A DNA stretch of 64,000 nt from Methanocella arvoryzae MRE50 (GTDB lineage Archaea > Halobacteriota > Methanocellia > Methanocellales > Methanocellaceae). Shown here in pieces: positions 53,244 through 62,676 of this stretch; positions within the stretch are counted from its first letter, which is position 1, and the number at the start of each line of letters is the position of its first letter. Location of the stretch: assembly GCF_000063445.1 (NCBI RefSeq), contig NC_009464.1, forward strand, positions 124,001-188,000. Direction: 5' to 3'. The position numbers and the translations under genes are program-made. A model generated the notes under the pieces. The model made no database searches, was not told where the DNA came from, and was given only the letters and a program-made list of their open reading frames with translations.

Positions 53244-53344
53244 TATTTTACAGGAGTATGTCCTGCGACTTATAAATAGCCGCTGTAAGAATACTTTCAT
53301 TGCCCGCAGAAGCTTTTAAACGTTTTCGGTCAGACTATATATTA

Positions 53345-55741
53345 ATGAAATTTCACGGCTGGCTCCTTGACGTTGATTATGTGGTCGAAAATGACAGGCC
53401 TGTTATTCGTATGTGGTGTATAGACGACGAGGGGCGCAGTGCCGTCCTTTTTGACAGGACCTTCGAGCCCTATTTTTACGTTGTACCTTATGGGGATGTG
53501 CCGATCAATACACTGGAGAATATCGCTGATGAAGTCGGTGGGGAGATAATCCGGCCTGTGCGGGTAGACGTTGTAGATCGCAAAAATTTTGGCGTGCCAG
53601 TCAAGGCGTACCGGCTGTTCACCCGGCTCCCCCGAGACGTACCCTATCTCAGAGAGATCGCCAAACGGTACGGCGACGTAAGAGAAGCAGATATCCTGTT
53701 CGGCGTCCGCTACATCATTGATAAACGATTGATCCCCATGGGCGGCATAGAGGCGGAAGGCGAGCCAGTAGAGGTAGACTACGTCGACATAGCCCTGAAC
53801 TGCGAACAGCCCAAAGGTATGCCCCGGGATGGCGAGCCGCCGGTAAAGATCATGGCTTTCGACTGCGAGATGTTCAACCCTCGCGGCATGCCCAACGCAA
53901 AAGAAGATCCGATCGTCCTGATCTCGATATGCACGGGAAATCAGGTCAGGATACTTGAGGCTTCGAACCAGAATGATAAGCAGATCATCAAAGACTTCAT
54001 CGCTTTTATCGATGAATACGACCCAGACATCATAGTGGGATACAACCAGGACTCGTTCGACTGGCCTTATATTATTGAGAGAGCCAAACGCCACAAGATC
54101 AAGCTGAACGTTTCAAGAGACGGCTCAACTCCACTGCATGGCAGAGGCGGACTGCAAAAGAAGGTCAAGCTGATCGGGCGGCTTAACGTGGACCTTTACC
54201 AGGTAGCCGCCAGGGACGTCGACGGCGTCAAGATCAAGACGCTGGATAACATAGCCGACTATGTCGGCGTGATGAAGAAGGACGAGCGAGTCAATTTGTC
54301 CGGCGTTGAGATTTACCAGTACTGGCTCGACCCCGAGCGCAGGAAAGATTTGATCGCCTACAGCAGGGATGACGTAGTAAGCACCTATGGCCTGGCAAAA
54401 GAGCTGCTGCCTTTACAGTACGAGTTTACCCGTATGATCCACGAGCCTCTGGATAACGTATCCAAGATGGGCAGAGGCCGGCAGGTCGAAGCGTACCTCG
54501 CCTATATCGCGTATGAGCATGGCGAGCTAATCCCGTCGAGAGCAGGAGAGGTAGAGACTTACGCAGGAGGCTTCGTCTTCGAGCCAGTGAAAGGCCTGCA
54601 CAAGAACGTAGCGGCGCTTGACTTTTCAGCGATGTACCCGTCGATCATGATCGCTTACAACATCTCGCCCGATACAGTATGCGAGGCAGGCGATCAGGAC
54701 TGTTCAGAACCGGCACCGGAAGTGGGCTACAGGTTCAAGAAGCAGCCTGAAGGGTTCTTCACCACCATTCTGAAGAACCTCGTCACCCATCGCAGTACCC
54801 TGAAAAAAAGGCTCGCGCAGCTCGACAGGAAGAGCAACGAATACCGTATGCTCGATCTCAGACAGAAGTCGATCAAGATCCTGACCAACGCTTTCTACGG
54901 GTATACCGGGTGGGCGCAGGCCAAATGGTATCGCAGGGAATGTGCAGAAGCCACCTCTGCCTGGGGCCGGTATTTCATCAAAAAAGCCAACGATATTGCG
55001 ATCGAGATGGGCTTGCAGGTGCTATACGGCGATACGGATTCTCTGTTTGTAGAGATGGAAGACAATAAACGGCTCATGGACGTGGTGCGCCAGTACATCC
55101 AGCGGGTGAAAGCAGAGCTGCCGCTGGACATGGACATAGATAACGTTTACAGAATTATCTTCTTCACCGAGTCCAAGAAACGTTACGCCGGCCTTACTGA
55201 TCGAGGAGAAATTGTCGTCAGGGGCCTCGAAGTGCGCAGGGGCGACTGGTGCGAGATCGCAAAGGAGCTTCAGTCGGAAGTCATCAGGATCATCCTGGAA
55301 GAGGAGAATCCGGACAAGGCTGCGAAGTTCGTCAAGGACACAGTTCAGAAAGTCAAGTCCGGCAAGGTGCCCCTCGACGCTCTTGTCATCCACAAAACTC
55401 TCACCAAGAGCGTCACCAGGTACGAGAGCGCCCAGGCCCACGTAAAAGCGGCCGAAAGAGCCATGGAAAGGGACATGGCCGCCGAAATCGGCAACAAGAT
55501 CAGCTACGTGATCGTCAAGGGCACGGGCACGTTAAGCGACCGCGCCTATCCGGTGGACATGTTCCACAAGTTCAAGGACAGCAAACTCTACGCGAAGGAT
55601 AAGACATACGAGATCGATGCCGATTACTACGTCGATAAACAGCTGATACCTACTGCCTTGAGGATACTCGGCTACTTCGGGTATACGGAAGATGCGCTGA
55701 AAGGCCGGAGTGTCCAGGGCACGCTGGAGAGCTTTTTCTAG
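53345..55741 (+). CDS. polB: Family B DNA polymerase (replicative) with C-terminal PIP box
   Basis: 798 residues from ATG 53345; TATA-like CTTTTAAACG (53311-53320) lies 25-35 bases before, so the mRNA is probably leaderless. Exonuclease motifs: FDCEMF near residue 175, GYNQDSFDWPYI near 236, and YSRDDVVSTY near 339. Polymerase motifs: DFSAMYPSIM near 425, KILTNAFYGYTGW near 514 and YGDTDSLFV near 560. The C-terminus QGTLESFF is a canonical PIP box for PCNA binding. It is a typical euryarchaeal PolB with proofreading. Confidence 0.97.
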   Translation: MKFHGWLLDVDYVVENDRPVIRMWCIDDEGRSAVLFDRTFEPYFYVVPYGDVPINTLENIADEVGGEIIRPVRVDVVDRKNFGVPVKAYRLFTRLPRDVPYLREIAKRYGDVREADILFGVRYIIDKRLIPMGGIEAEGEPVEVDYVDIALNCEQPKGMPRDGEPPVKIMAFDCEMFNPRGMPNAKEDPIVLISICTGNQVRILEASNQNDKQIIKDFIAFIDEYDPDIIVGYNQDSFDWPYIIERAKRHKIKLNVSRDGSTPLHGRGGLQKKVKLIGRLNVDLYQVAARDVDGVKIKTLDNIADYVGVMKKDERVNLSGVEIYQYWLDPERRKDLIAYSRDDVVSTYGLAKELLPLQYEFTRMIHEPLDNVSKMGRGRQVEAYLAYIAYEHGELIPSRAGEVETYAGGFVFEPVKGLHKNVAALDFSAMYPSIMIAYNISPDTVCEAGDQDCSEPAPEVGYRFKKQPEGFFTTILKNLVTHRSTLKKRLAQLDRKSNEYRMLDLRQKSIKILTNAFYGYTGWAQAKWYRRECAEATSAWGRYFIKKANDIAIEMGLQVLYGDTDSLFVEMEDNKRLMDVVRQYIQRVKAELPLDMDIDNVYRIIFFTESKKRYAGLTDRGEIVVRGLEVRRGDWCEIAKELQSEVIRIILEEENPDKAAKFVKDTVQKVKSGKVPLDALVIHKTLTKSVTRYESAQAHVKAAERAMERDMAAEIGNKISYVIVKGTGTLSDRAYPVDMFHKFKDSKLYAKDKTYEIDADYYVDKQLIPTALRILGYFGYTEDALKGRSVQGTLESFF

Positions 55742-56238: not shown

Positions 56239-56334
56239 TAGTTTCTGCCGGACACATAAAAATTTTCCATTTTTCGATACTTTCAACACGCTCTCGGCTT
56301 CGGATTATATCCTTTTCTGCCAATCAAGTAATCG

Positions 56335-57447
56335 ATGGGCGAGAAGTACTTTTCACTGGAAGAGCGAATGCGTATCCTGTCGGCAGGCACTAAGTACGAC
56401 AGCTGCAACAGTACTACCACCTGCCACACATTCACTCCTGACGGGCGGTGCATTCAGCTGTATAAGACACTGATGACAAACCGCTGCAGCGGCGAGTGCC
56501 TCTACTGCCCCAACCGGTGCGGCAGAGACGCTACGAGGGCTTCTCTTTCTGCGGAGGAAATCGCTAAGATCACCTGGGACTTCTACCGTAGAAATGCTAT
56601 CGAAGGTCTCTTTCTATCGTCTGGCATCGTAGGCGACCCTGAGCACACGGCCCAGAAGCAGCTGGACGTGATCAAAGGGCTGCGTGACAGCGGTTTCCCT
56701 GGTTATATTCACGTACGCCTGATGCCGGGCACTCCCCGGGACATCATCCGGGAAGTATCTCTCTACGCTAACAAGTTCGGGATCAACGCTGAGACTACCT
56801 GCCGGTCCCGGTACGAGGAAATATGCCCTAACTTCGACTACGACATCGATATTCTGCGCAGGATGTCGTGGACCTACGAGAACGTAAAGAGGCGGCGTAG
56901 TGAAGTGAGGTACGGAGAAGGGATCGTCGGTTCAAACGATACTCAGTTTGTCGTCGGGGCGTCAGGAGAGCCTGACCTCGAGATCATCTCCACCATCGAG
57001 CATTTCATGGGTGAGTATGGCCTGCGGCGCCCGTTCTTCATGAGCTTCGATCCGGTGCCTGATACTCCTCTGTCATCCGGTAAGCCGTCCCCGCTCTGGA
57101 GAGAAGTCCGGCTGTACCAGACCTCTTACCTGATGAAGGACTACGGCCTCAAGTGTAAAGACCTGGAGCCGGTTCTGACGGATGGAGGATTCCTGCCGGA
57201 CGAGGATCCCAAGATGGTGATGGCCCGGCTTAACAAAGATCTGTTTCCGGTGGACGTGAACAATGCGTCCTACGAGGACCTGATCAAGGTGCCGGGGATA
57301 GGGCCCAGGACCGCAAATCAGATACTCCGCTGCCGCCCGATCCTGAATTACGTGCAGCTGAGCAATATGGGCGTCGTGCTCAAGCGGGCCAGGCCGTTCA
57401 TCAAGGTGGGGAATAAAGTACAGGCAAGTCTGGAGGCTTTCACATGA
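56335..57447 (+). CDS. Radical SAM protein with helix-hairpin-helix, putative DNA repair/modification
   Basis: 370 residues. The radical SAM cysteines are in MTNRCSGECLYCPNRC (near residue 50), with a second Cys-rich part upstream (CNSTTTC). The C-terminal VDVNNASYEDLIKVPGIGPRTANQIL (about 303-330) is a helix-hairpin-helix DNA-binding motif. This matches the family annotated as putative DNA modification/repair radical SAM (TIGR03916), always found next to the partner encoded immediately downstream (4-bp ATGA overlap). The substrate lesion or base is unknown. Confidence 0.85.
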   Translation: MGEKYFSLEERMRILSAGTKYDSCNSTTTCHTFTPDGRCIQLYKTLMTNRCSGECLYCPNRCGRDATRASLSAEEIAKITWDFYRRNAIEGLFLSSGIVGDPEHTAQKQLDVIKGLRDSGFPGYIHVRLMPGTPRDIIREVSLYANKFGINAETTCRSRYEEICPNFDYDIDILRRMSWTYENVKRRRSEVRYGEGIVGSNDTQFVVGASGEPDLEIISTIEHFMGEYGLRRPFFMSFDPVPDTPLSSGKPSPLWREVRLYQTSYLMKDYGLKCKDLEPVLTDGGFLPDEDPKMVMARLNKDLFPVDVNNASYEDLIKVPGIGPRTANQILRCRPILNYVQLSNMGVVLKRARPFIKVGNKVQASLEAFT

Positions 57448-58286
57448 TCATCGGCTACAAAAAGAACGTCTGGGACGTACTGAGGGCGGCCATCGCCATG
57501 AACAGGGAGCCGGGGGCTACATTCGTCTGCGGCAAAGACCAGCGAGACCTTGATCAAAAACTGGCCCAGTACCACGGGGAAATCATCGAAAAAGTCGAAG
57601 TCATGGTACCTCAAGTCCCTGTATCGGTCAAGCTCAAGCTCCGGGAACGCCTTCCGTGCACTGGCAGCCGGTGCCAGCCATCTCTTCATACGTATATCAC
57701 CTACTCGCTCAAGCACAGGAAATGCGTGCCTAACGAGCTGGTGCGGATGCTGGCCGGGTATTATCCTGACATAGGGCAGGCGCTGGGGCATAAGGATGAG
57801 CTGTCGAAGAAATATTACAGCCTCGAGATGGACGTGATGCGGGAGATCGAGCGGCTGCGCGCGATGACCCGGCCCCGGCCTGCCGGCAACCTGATGTACG
57901 TCGAGATCGCTCCCGAGCACTACGTGATCGATCTCTACCTGGAATGGCTGGGAAAGCGTGTTACAGATCGGGCCTCAGTAGTAAAGTGTCACAGGGACTA
58001 CTACCTGGTCAACGCCCATTTCCTCGGGTACGACGGCCAGTACAAGGAGATATCGCCGGAGGAGGCTTCTCGCATTCTCGGAAATGTGCCCGACGCCGAC
58101 ATTTCAGTATGGGAAGCGTTCTATGATTCCCAGGCAATAGAGAGCAGGCGAAACCGGGAGTATGCATCCGCTAAGATTCCGGCAAAGTGTGCCAGCTTAA
58201 GCCACGAAATAAAAATTGAGAGAAAGAAGATAGAGCGCGGCATCCCGCGCAACAGTCTGGACGACTTCTTCAGCCTTCAGACTTGA
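57444..58286 (+). CDS. DUF4130 partner of the radical SAM repair protein, PIP-like C-terminus
   Basis: 280 residues, matching the family (TIGR03915/DUF4130) that in many bacteria is fused to a uracil-DNA-glycosylase domain; that domain is absent here. Conserved features are GYKKNVWDVLRAA at the start and NLMYVEIAPEHYVIDLYLEWL and FRDYYLVNAHF-like segments (HRDYYLVNAHFLGYDG). The C-terminus RNSLDDFF resembles a PIP box (with Arg in place of Gln), suggesting PCNA recruitment. It overlaps cofE tail-to-tail by 17 bp. Confidence 0.82.
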   Translation: MIIGYKKNVWDVLRAAIAMNREPGATFVCGKDQRDLDQKLAQYHGEIIEKVEVMVPQVPVSVKLKLRERLPCTGSRCQPSLHTYITYSLKHRKCVPNELVRMLAGYYPDIGQALGHKDELSKKYYSLEMDVMREIERLRAMTRPRPAGNLMYVEIAPEHYVIDLYLEWLGKRVTDRASVVKCHRDYYLVNAHFLGYDGQYKEISPEEASRILGNVPDADISVWEAFYDSQAIESRRNREYASAKIPAKCASLSHEIKIERKKIERGIPRNSLDDFFSLQT

Positions 58287-59076
58287 TCTTCTTAGAATTT
58301 TCTCTGTGCACGCTGGAAGCTTCCCTATCTAATTTTTCGTACAGCGCCTGTTTGACGAGGTCTGTCTCGTCGGAGCGGTAGCATACTTTGATTCCCCGGT
58401 CGTCTTTGACGTACCGGTAGCCCCGGATGATTGCTATGGGGGTGCCTTCGTTTGCCTCGCCCATGATCATGTTGGCACAGGAGGCCACCTCGTCGGTGAT
58501 GCCCTGTATGGTGATTTTGAGCTCGTGGCCGAAAAGGTCTACATCTCCTCTGCGGTCGTGCACCGCTGCGATGCCGGCGCAGCCTACTGCGACGCCGATC
58601 TGGCCTTCCCTGAACGATCTGCCGTTGGTATCGGTGATTACGACGGCCACAGTCTTTCCGGTAAGCTCTTTGAGCCGGTCCCGTATCTCCCGGGCGCTCC
58701 TGTCCGAGTCCTCCGGTAACAGCAAAATGTAGCCGGATTCAGTATTTGAGCGGTCGATGCCTGCGTTGATACACACGTTACCGTAGATCGTCTGCACTAG
58801 AAGCGGGTGCTTAAGGAGCACTCTGGTGCTGTTATCCAGCACGTACTGGATGAATTTCGGGTCTTCCTTGTTAAGCAGGGCCAGTTCCCGGGCCTCTGCG
58901 GTCGGCTCGATGGCATCGAGTAAAAATCTGCGGCCCTCAGCCTTGGACACGATGGTCGAAGCGAACACAACGATGTCGTCATTCTCGAGACATGCCCTGT
59001 CAGCGACAATTTTCGCCAGATCATCGCCCTTCTGGATCATCGGCACGTCCTCGACGGTAAAAGCGGATATCTTCAC
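58270..59076 (-). CDS. cofE: Coenzyme F420-0:L-glutamate ligase
   Basis: Adds the glutamate tail to F420-0 using GTP. The 268 residues have the CofE start (SAFTVEDVPMIQKGDDLAKIV, with TIVSKAEGR), ITDTNGRSFREGQIGVAVGCAGI and the GITDEVASCANMIMGEANEGTPIAIIRG region. The C-terminal tail (VHRENSKKIKSEG) is extra and overlaps the converging gene. ATG 59076 is preceded by GAGGG. A TATA-like TTTAAGTA on the minus strand lies at about 59121-59129. Necessary for F420 function, including FprA. Confidence 0.96.
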   Translation of the reverse strand: MKISAFTVEDVPMIQKGDDLAKIVADRACLENDDIVVFASTIVSKAEGRRFLLDAIEPTAEARELALLNKEDPKFIQYVLDNSTRVLLKHPLLVQTIYGNVCINAGIDRSNTESGYILLLPEDSDRSAREIRDRLKELTGKTVAVVITDTNGRSFREGQIGVAVGCAGIAAVHDRRGDVDLFGHELKITIQGITDEVASCANMIMGEANEGTPIAIIRGYRYVKDDRGIKVCYRSDETDLVKQALYEKLDREASSVHRENSKKIKSEG

Positions 59077-61131: not shown

Positions 61132-62676
61132 TTATTTCCTTAAGAACAGGAAATATGTGCCTACGGCAATTACGATTACGACGAGCGAGATCAGGAGAAT
61201 CCATATAGCGAATCCTGACTGAGATCCTCCCGTTTCAGTCGGGCCTGCCGTCTGAGAGGGTGGGGCTGCGAGTGTCGGGGAGGACGATACCGTTGCTGTC
61301 GGCGTTACCGTCATAGCTGTCGTTCCACCCGTAACCGGCGTGGCAACCGGTGTCACTGTCGGGGTTGGTGTCGGGGTTGGTGTCGGTGTCGGTTGTCTGC
61401 CGTACAGCATATCCATCGAGATCGTGCCGCTTCCGATGATTCTATCTGGAGTGTTATAAACAAACACATCCGAACCGGCGACATGAGCCACATTCCACAC
61501 CTGAATCCTATGATTATAGCTGTCGGATACGTATATGTTGCCCCTGCCATCAACCGCTATACCACGAGGTCGATCGAATTCTCCTGGCTGGATGCCATTG
61601 CTTCCCATTGTTGTCCAGGTGTTTGTGGTTTTGTTCCATACCTGAATCCTGTGATTATAGTCGTCGGCTACATATATGTTGCCAGCGTCATCCACCGCTA
61701 TATCCTTAGGCTCGTAGAATTCTCCTGGCTGGATGCCATTGCTTCCCATTGTTGTCCAGGTGTTTGTGGCTTTGTTCCATACCTGAATTCTATAATTAAG
61801 GGTGTCGGCTACGTATATGTTGCCAGCGCCATCAACAGCAATACCTTTAGGCTCGTAAAATTGTCCCGGTTCGGTTCCATTGCTTCCCATTGATATCCAG
61901 GTATTATCGGTTTTGTTCCATACCTGAATCCTGTCATTAAAGGTATCGAGTACGTATATGTTGCCAGTGTCATCAACCGCAATACCAAACGGTCGATCGA
62001 ATTGTCCTGGCTCGGTTCCATCGCTTCCTATTATTGTCCAGGTGTTTGTGGTTTTGTTCCATACCTGAATCCTGTAATTGTAGGTGTCGGCTACGTATAT
62101 GTTGCCAGCGCCATCAACCGCAATACCCCGCGGAGAGCTGAATTGTCCCGGATCGTCGTCAGGGCTGCCTGTTGTTGTCCAGGTGTTTGTGGCTTTGTTC
62201 CATACCTGAATCCTGTCATTAAAGGTGTCGGCTACGTATATGTTGCCAGCGCCATCAACCGCAATAGCGTGCGGCCTGTAGAATTCTCCCGGTCCGTCGC
62301 CACGGCTGCCTATTGTTGTCCAGTAAGGTGTGGTGTTTAGCTTTATTGTGTATATGCCGTTCGGCACATTAGTGCCGTTCGTGTATTTACCGTTCCATGA
62401 CGTCTGGAATGTTCCGTCAGTGGCTGTGCCCTGATCCAGTATGTTTATCAGACTGCCGCTGTTCTCGACATACACCATGTACTCCTGGCCATTCGTGTTC
62501 ACCAGGCTATACGTAACCTCAGTAACTGAACCACTCTTGATAGTGGCAGGATCAGCCGTCACTGAACCGGTAACCATACCGGCAGCATGAGCCTGAGATA
62601 TAATCATGGACAGTAACAATAATATAATGAACACCTTAGAAAGGACCCTGACTCCTGGCACTCTTCCTACCTCCAA
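61132..62676 (-). CDS. NHL-repeat surface protein with Pro/Thr stalk and C-terminal anchor
   Basis: 514 residues: signal peptide (about 1-32), a beta domain (about 35-110), six NHL repeats of 47 residues (about 112-395; each with IAVD-x-GNIYV-x-D-x2-N-x-RIQVW) that should close into one six-bladed propeller, then a Pro-Thr stalk (PTPTPTP) and a C-terminal helix followed by RK. It is an exported cell-surface protein, perhaps for adhesion or ligand binding. TATA-like sequence lies at about 62711-62730. Confidence 0.85.
   Translation of the reverse strand: MEVGRVPGVRVLSKVFIILLLLSMIISQAHAAGMVTGSVTADPATIKSGSVTEVTYSLVNTNGQEYMVYVENSGSLINILDQGTATDGTFQTSWNGKYTNGTNVPNGIYTIKLNTTPYWTTIGSRGDGPGEFYRPHAIAVDGAGNIYVADTFNDRIQVWNKATNTWTTTGSPDDDPGQFSSPRGIAVDGAGNIYVADTYNYRIQVWNKTTNTWTIIGSDGTEPGQFDRPFGIAVDDTGNIYVLDTFNDRIQVWNKTDNTWISMGSNGTEPGQFYEPKGIAVDGAGNIYVADTLNYRIQVWNKATNTWTTMGSNGIQPGEFYEPKDIAVDDAGNIYVADDYNHRIQVWNKTTNTWTTMGSNGIQPGEFDRPRGIAVDGRGNIYVSDSYNHRIQVWNVAHVAGSDVFVYNTPDRIIGSGTISMDMLYGRQPTPTPTPTPTPTVTPVATPVTGGTTAMTVTPTATVSSSPTLAAPPSQTAGPTETGGSQSGFAIWILLISLVVIVIAVGTYFLFLRK
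61484..62333 (-). repeat. Six NHL units, 141-bp DNA repeats
   Basis: The six propeller blades are nearly identical in DNA, for example TATATGTTGCCAGCGCCATC recurs through the array, so blade number could change by recombination. The period is 141 bp (47 codons). Confidence 0.8.

Follow-up and report, generated by a model that had tools for sequence, protein, structure and literature searches.

Two overlapping genes of the Methanocella genome, encoding a radical SAM/helix-hairpin-helix protein and a DUF4130 protein, probably form a radical SAM module for DNA repair or modification that is tethered to the sliding clamp, with DUF4130 as the partner. The window examined was the complete 64,000-nucleotide stretch from position 124001 to 188000 of a one-contig, 3.18-Mb archaeal genome; coordinates given below are window positions on the forward strand unless marked otherwise. 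The radical SAM gene (P0001, 370 aa, TIGR03916-like; 56335-57447) was assigned from its open reading frame, profile matches and an AF2 model, and the DUF4130 gene (P0002, 280 aa; 57444-58286) from its open reading frame and a PF13566 match above cut-off. An earlier note on this DNA had described a pair overlapping by 4 bp; both reading frames were recovered at the same positions, and the overlap that joins them is an ATGA start/stop junction (57444-57447). The corresponding junctions in related genomes are likewise 1-4 bp, and the ATGA overlap suggests translational coupling of the two genes. A TATA-like element lies about 28 bp 5' of the first ATG (56304-56311), and the pair may therefore possess its own promoter and a near-leaderless transcript.

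Besides the three closest genomes, the pair was found in genomes of the Methanosarcinaceae-like type and in archaeal family f19, whose DUF4130 protein has about 200 aa. It also occurs in a few other archaea (Woesearchaeota, Micrarchaeota and Methanofastidiosum) and in bacteria (Bacteroidota, Bacillota, Pseudomonadota, Myxococcota, Elusimicrobiota, Margulisiibacteriota and others). DUF4130 was present in 50 of the 394 genomes of the phylum, and the radical SAM gene was present in all 50. As the adjacency recurs in relatives and in bacteria, and as co-occurrence is complete, the pairing does not appear to be a matter of chance. The radical SAM family is also common on its own: more than half of the archaeal relatives in the phylum have no DUF4130 neighbour, implying that part of its function does not need DUF4130. 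Relatives were recovered from the genome contigs with an alignment query, a search with the single protein having found none. A gene encoding a MutS-V/HhH protein follows the pair in Methanosarcinaceae-like genomes. It was rejected as a third member, since a homologue is present in 329 of the 394 genomes of the phylum; nor is it specific to the pair in Methanocella, where a homologue is found elsewhere in the genome (G000:C1:45170-47250, outside the window). The Methanocella homologue consists of two overlapping frames of 585 and 148 codons (L211, L212); in each of the three closest relatives the copy is a single frame.

The radical SAM cluster motif of P0001, CX3CX2C (Cys51, Cys55 and Cys58; codons at 56485-56508), is invariant in both alignments (A1 and A4), and the protein scores slightly under the cut-off of the Pfam Radical_SAM model (26.2 bits against 29.5). 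A helix-hairpin-helix of the ComEA/RuvA type was located by sequence and profile matches at residues 305-334 (57247-57336), with a Pfam match of 32.2 bits against a cut-off of 24 over residues 308-332; it is probably a DNA-binding element. Both elements that the earlier note had attributed to this protein are thus present. P0001 matches TIGR03916 (rSAM_link_UDG, COG4277; a putative DNA modification/repair radical SAM family) over its full length at 293.1 bits, spanning model positions 33-382 of 415. This is under the curated cut-off of 343.5, which is passed by none of the 394 genomes of the phylum. P0001 shares with TIGR03916 proteins full-length homology, the CX3CX2C motif, an N-terminal Cys triad, the helix-hairpin-helix and an adjoining DUF4130 partner gene. 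It differs from them in its score, in having a C-terminal PIP box instead of QLSLF, and in a locus that contains no UDG-family domain.

The AF2 model of P0001 (pLDDT 89, pTM 0.85) was closest, among solved structures, to HydE, PFL-activating enzyme, BioB, HydG, lipoyl synthase (LipA), ThiH and viperin. Spore photoproduct lyase appeared neither in the top 50 structural matches nor among the profile matches. The modelled radical SAM core therefore resembles that of HydE, BioB and LipA, and not that of spore photoproduct lyase (SplB), whose architecture is not known to include the N-terminal Cys triad and the helix-hairpin-helix seen in P0001. This comparison bears on a proposal that has some basis in the literature. 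Aravind and colleagues (PMC3765255) regarded DUF4130 as an enzyme with a predicted role in mutagenesis and connected it with UDG and with radical SAM proteins resembling SplB; their 2013 paper proposed action on thymines for the SplB-like partner. In addition, a study of Bacteroidetes (PMC8565304) predicts LexA control of the two-gene COG1573-COG4277 operon, as of dinB, umuDC and splB, such that the operon and splB fall in the same predicted regulons. P0001 and SplB accordingly have in common the radical SAM domain, a DNA-lesion hypothesis and, in bacteria, predicted LexA regulation, and the radical SAM enzyme could be imagined to reverse a photoproduct in the manner of spore photoproduct lyase, splitting a thymine lesion with the assistance of DUF4130. 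However, the structural neighbours of P0001, its helix-hairpin-helix and its partner protein all set it apart from SplB, and photoproduct reversal is considered quite unlikely.

A further set of cysteines lies N-terminal to the radical SAM motif, comprising Cys24, Cys30, which is directly followed by His31, and Cys39 within the sequence DGRC (codons at 56404-56451); it was recognised by its conservation in DUF4130-partnered representatives. All 60 radical SAM representatives that have a DUF4130 partner (19 archaeal and 41 bacterial) carry the triad; of the 34 archaeal representatives lacking a partner, none has the Cys30/Cys39 pair. Because the patterns used to find the bacterial loci partly included DGRC, while the archaeal loci came mostly from an HMM, the archaeal subset (19/19 versus 0/34) is the less biased comparison. 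In a tree built without the triad columns, the triad and the DUF4130 partner underwent four changes each, which coincided in 4 of 4 cases; the corresponding sign test gave p 0.125, four independent events being too few for significance. The link between the triad and the DUF4130 partner was not found in the searched literature and is apparently new. The triad may form an auxiliary cluster or metal site.

Extra cysteines of this kind recall auxiliary-cluster enzymes, and the nearest folds (BioB, LipA and HydE) belong to enzymes that insert sulfur or act on complex substrates. Both observations would suit an enzyme that modifies DNA and does not repair it, introducing sulfur, a methyl group or some other change into bases at the replication fork, where clamp tethering would permit modification of new DNA. 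However, the predicted SOS regulation in bacteria and the fusion of DUF4130 to UdgX (see below) are indicative of damage, no accompanying gene for sequence recognition, regulation or restriction was seen, and the pair had no match among the PADLOC models of anti-phage defence. Modification in place of repair is consequently judged very unlikely.

P0002 exceeded the gathering cut-off for PF13566/DUF4130 (38.5 bits against 27) and scored under the curated cut-off of TIGR03915 (SAM_7_link_chp; 30.4 bits against 112.25). Profile-profile comparison nevertheless gave clear homology between archaeal DUF4130 proteins and bacterial TIGR03915 members (98-99% probability), and Arg143, Trp223, Arg235, Asn237 and Pro246 within the Pfam DUF4130 region (residues 117-248; 57792-58187) are conserved in archaea and bacteria. 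The standalone TIGR03915/DUF4130 proteins of Bacteroidota, Bacillota and Acinetobacter share these residues with P0002, together with a PF13566 match above cut-off and a gene position after the radical SAM gene. The archaeal proteins differ from them by the addition of a C-terminal PIP-like tail and by lacking the YDGxF N-terminus and the PKRYWK..E end.

Searching PDB sequences with P0002 or its alignment profile yielded no credible relative. The AF2 model (pLDDT 75, pTM 0.57) consists of an N-terminal alpha/beta unit, a long connecting helix (residues 119-141) and a C-terminal mixed sheet, as expected of DHH-DHHA1 proteins. A Foldseek search of the PDB with this model returned a best E of 1.2e-4, and nearly all of the top 45 matches belonged to the DHH/RecJ/Cdc45 family, the nearest chains being a DHH-family PAP phosphatase, PggH, GdpP, DhhP, RecJ and Cdc45. 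In BFVD the best E was 2.0e-4, and the named top viral models were mostly DHH phosphohydrolases, NrnB and RecJ. The TM-scores to DHH proteins are low (0.2-0.42) and derive from a model of moderate confidence. An hhalign comparison of DUF4130 with RecJ- and NrnA-type profiles built from archaeal loci gave a probability under 2%, and a Pfam scan of 44 DUF4130 members gave no DHH match; the claim was therefore kept as a structural one. The N-terminal part of DUF4130 has no invariant Asp or His, and the metal-binding DxD/DHH motifs are missing. P0002 may share with DHH/DHHA1 phosphoesterases, RecJ and Cdc45 the predicted two-domain fold with a long connecting helix, as suggested by Foldseek in two libraries, but it lacks their metal-binding motifs and any detectable sequence-profile similarity to them. 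The chance that DUF4130 has a DHH/RecJ/Cdc45-like fold devoid of metal ligands is put at about even. These predicted fold neighbours were not found in the searched literature and are apparently new.

The association with the sliding clamp is suggested by the termini of both proteins. A comparison of 116 archaeal tails identified a C-terminal PIP box in P0001, Q363-ASLEA-F369 (57421-57441), in the terminal peptide KVQASLEAFT; the Q-x-x-L-x-x-F pattern is present, position 8 is Thr and the second aromatic residue is absent. This box had been missed by the earlier note, which reported only the PIP-like tail of the DUF4130 protein. That tail, RNSLDDFF (residues 269-276; 58248-58271; C-terminal peptide PRNSLDDFFSLQT), is indeed present, with the Leu and both Phe residues in place and the Gln absent, and it is conserved in archaea: Leu272 and Phe275 occur in 16 of 16 archaeal seed sequences. 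The xLDxF(F) tail is an archaeal feature, absent from bacterial DUF4130 homologues.

Most of the 116 archaeal radical SAM tails read Q[TSAK]x[LIF]xx[FW] or a near variant, with or without a DUF4130 neighbour, and it is at the extreme C-terminus that known archaeal PIP motifs are found (PMC6881253). The PIP pattern was present in the last 20 residues of 42 of 56 representatives (86 of all 116). From the remaining sequence of these proteins 1.1 would be expected, and shuffled tails gave a mean of 2.5 (maximum 8). Bacterial radical SAM homologues end instead in QLSLF, QMSLF, QLTLF, QLDLF and similar forms of the beta-clamp motif. Counted with the published clamp-binding consensus QL[S/D]LF/QxxLF (PMC12309361), the strict motif was present in the last 40 residues of 58 of 76 bacterial radical SAM proteins and nowhere else in them. 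It was found in 0 of 116 archaeal radical SAM proteins, and the PIP pattern occurred at chance level in the bacterial ones; TTLEMW and QRRLF are examples of the degenerate motifs that account for several of the misses in these counts. The bacterial DUF4130 proteins have an excess of QxxLF in an N-terminal loop (23 of 63, against a shuffled mean of 3.7 and maximum of 10). From these motifs, recruitment of the archaeal pair by PCNA is probable. The switch between an archaeal PIP box and a bacterial beta-clamp motif appears to be new, no account of it having been found in the literature searched. A large group of archaeal radical SAM/HhH proteins (L051-L070, L165-L210) stands alone, with neither DUF4130 nor the Cys triad, but carries this PIP box at the C-terminus; its members may have a separate function on PCNA.

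Fusion of DUF4130 to a uracil-DNA glycosylase, which the earlier note had mentioned as occurring elsewhere, was confirmed in bacteria. DUF4130-UdgX fusions (TIGR03915 plus TIGR03914; 343 bits for the UdgX domain of L043) are frequent in Alphaproteobacteria and also occur in a Myxococcaceae bacterium. The DUF4130 domain of these proteins, like P0002, stands beside the same radical SAM enzyme; P0002 differs in having no fused UdgX, a uracil-excising, DNA-crosslinking domain. In the tree the fusions group together in one clade (SH-aLRT 100), which lies among bacterial lineages whose DUF4130 is standalone, a form that is common in bacteria. By this phylogeny the fusion is a derived bacterial state, and an ancestral fused glycosylase that PCNA could have replaced probably never existed. 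The beta-clamp motif is carried by radical SAM partners of fused and unfused DUF4130 alike (for UdgX fusions, L090, L100 and L118 are examples), which suggests that clamp tethering is general and that PCNA tethering is no substitute for a lost glycosylase. Of the earlier suggestion that the archaeal pair relies on PCNA in place of a fused glycosylase, recruitment by PCNA is therefore retained as probable and the replacement is discarded.

The fusions also raise the question of whether the pair is a component of base excision, processing uracil or other deaminated bases with the fused UdgX in Proteobacteria or with an unlinked family-4 UDG in Methanocella. The COG1573-COG4277 pair has been named a putative UDG base excision repair system (PMC8565304), and a search for a separate glycosylase gene did find a family-4 UDG in the Methanocella genome. 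However, this UDG is of the general family-4 type and lies about 120 kb from the pair, no UDG stands beside the archaeal pairs or the bacterial pairs with standalone DUF4130, and the UdgX fusion is confined to its single derived clade; a base excision role is thus unlikely. Two UDG genes were found in the genome, at C1:59564 and C1:675995, neither of them in the window. The latter (G000:C1:675995-676297, L042) is a short UDG-like frame of 151 aa with a weak match (29 bits); it lies close to a transposase-like ORF and is possibly a mobile or degraded UDG relative.

The relevant papers in the searched literature were PMC3765255 and PMC8565304 only. No biochemical study of the radical SAM/DUF4130 family was found there, nor any experiment showing DNA binding, PCNA binding or radical chemistry for a member. 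The view of the earlier note, that this is a DNA repair or modification pair of undescribed chemistry, is supported by the analysis presented here. The sequences themselves establish the gene pair, its motifs with their conservation and the co-occurrence of the Cys triad with DUF4130; PCNA binding and the DHH-like fold are predictions. In the preferred reading, a clamp-tethered module, the radical SAM protein would bind duplex or branched DNA through its helix-hairpin-helix and be held on PCNA by its C-terminal PIP box, and the Q-less PIP-like tail of DUF4130 would allow both proteins to share one PCNA trimer. The CX3CX2C cluster would cleave SAM to yield a deoxyadenosyl radical directed at a damaged base or sugar. 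DUF4130, with its predicted DHH/RecJ-like fold and no metal ligands, would be a non-catalytic or non-canonical nucleic-acid-binding partner that holds or presents the DNA strand and does not cut it. The joint reaction would make use of an auxiliary cluster or metal bound at the Cys triad, which is found only in enzymes coupled to DUF4130.

To our knowledge, very few radical SAM enzymes act on DNA, and we know of none shown to work on a sliding clamp. It can be suggested, more tentatively, that the pair represents a new class of replisome-coupled repair, in which a radical SAM enzyme borne on the clamp in bacteria and archaea, and a pseudo-RecJ (Cdc45-like) partner tied to an auxiliary Cys site, would bring radical chemistry to the fork. 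The family is widespread in both domains and uncharacterised, with SOS regulation predicted in some bacteria. Its switch of clamp motif provides an easily tested handle, and the coupling of the Cys triad to DUF4130 allows point mutants that separate the joint function from that of the standalone enzyme.

Several neighbouring genes were also noted. A family B DNA polymerase gene (PolB, 53300-55741) precedes the pair by about 600 bp on the same strand, and its product ends in a canonical PIP box, QGTLESFF, a handy in-genome reference for PCNA clients. PolB was set aside as a functional partner and taken as a neighbour; the upstream gene differs in the nearest relative. Downstream, the gene for CofE (coenzyme F420-0:L-glutamate ligase; 58270-59076, reverse strand) is convergent with the DUF4130 gene, an order kept in two related genomes (L004 and L005). 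Further along, the reverse strand at 61132-62676 encodes a 514-aa protein composed of repeated GQFxxPxGIAVDxxGNIYVADTxNxRIQVWN units (an NHL-like beta-propeller) with a C-terminal membrane anchor.
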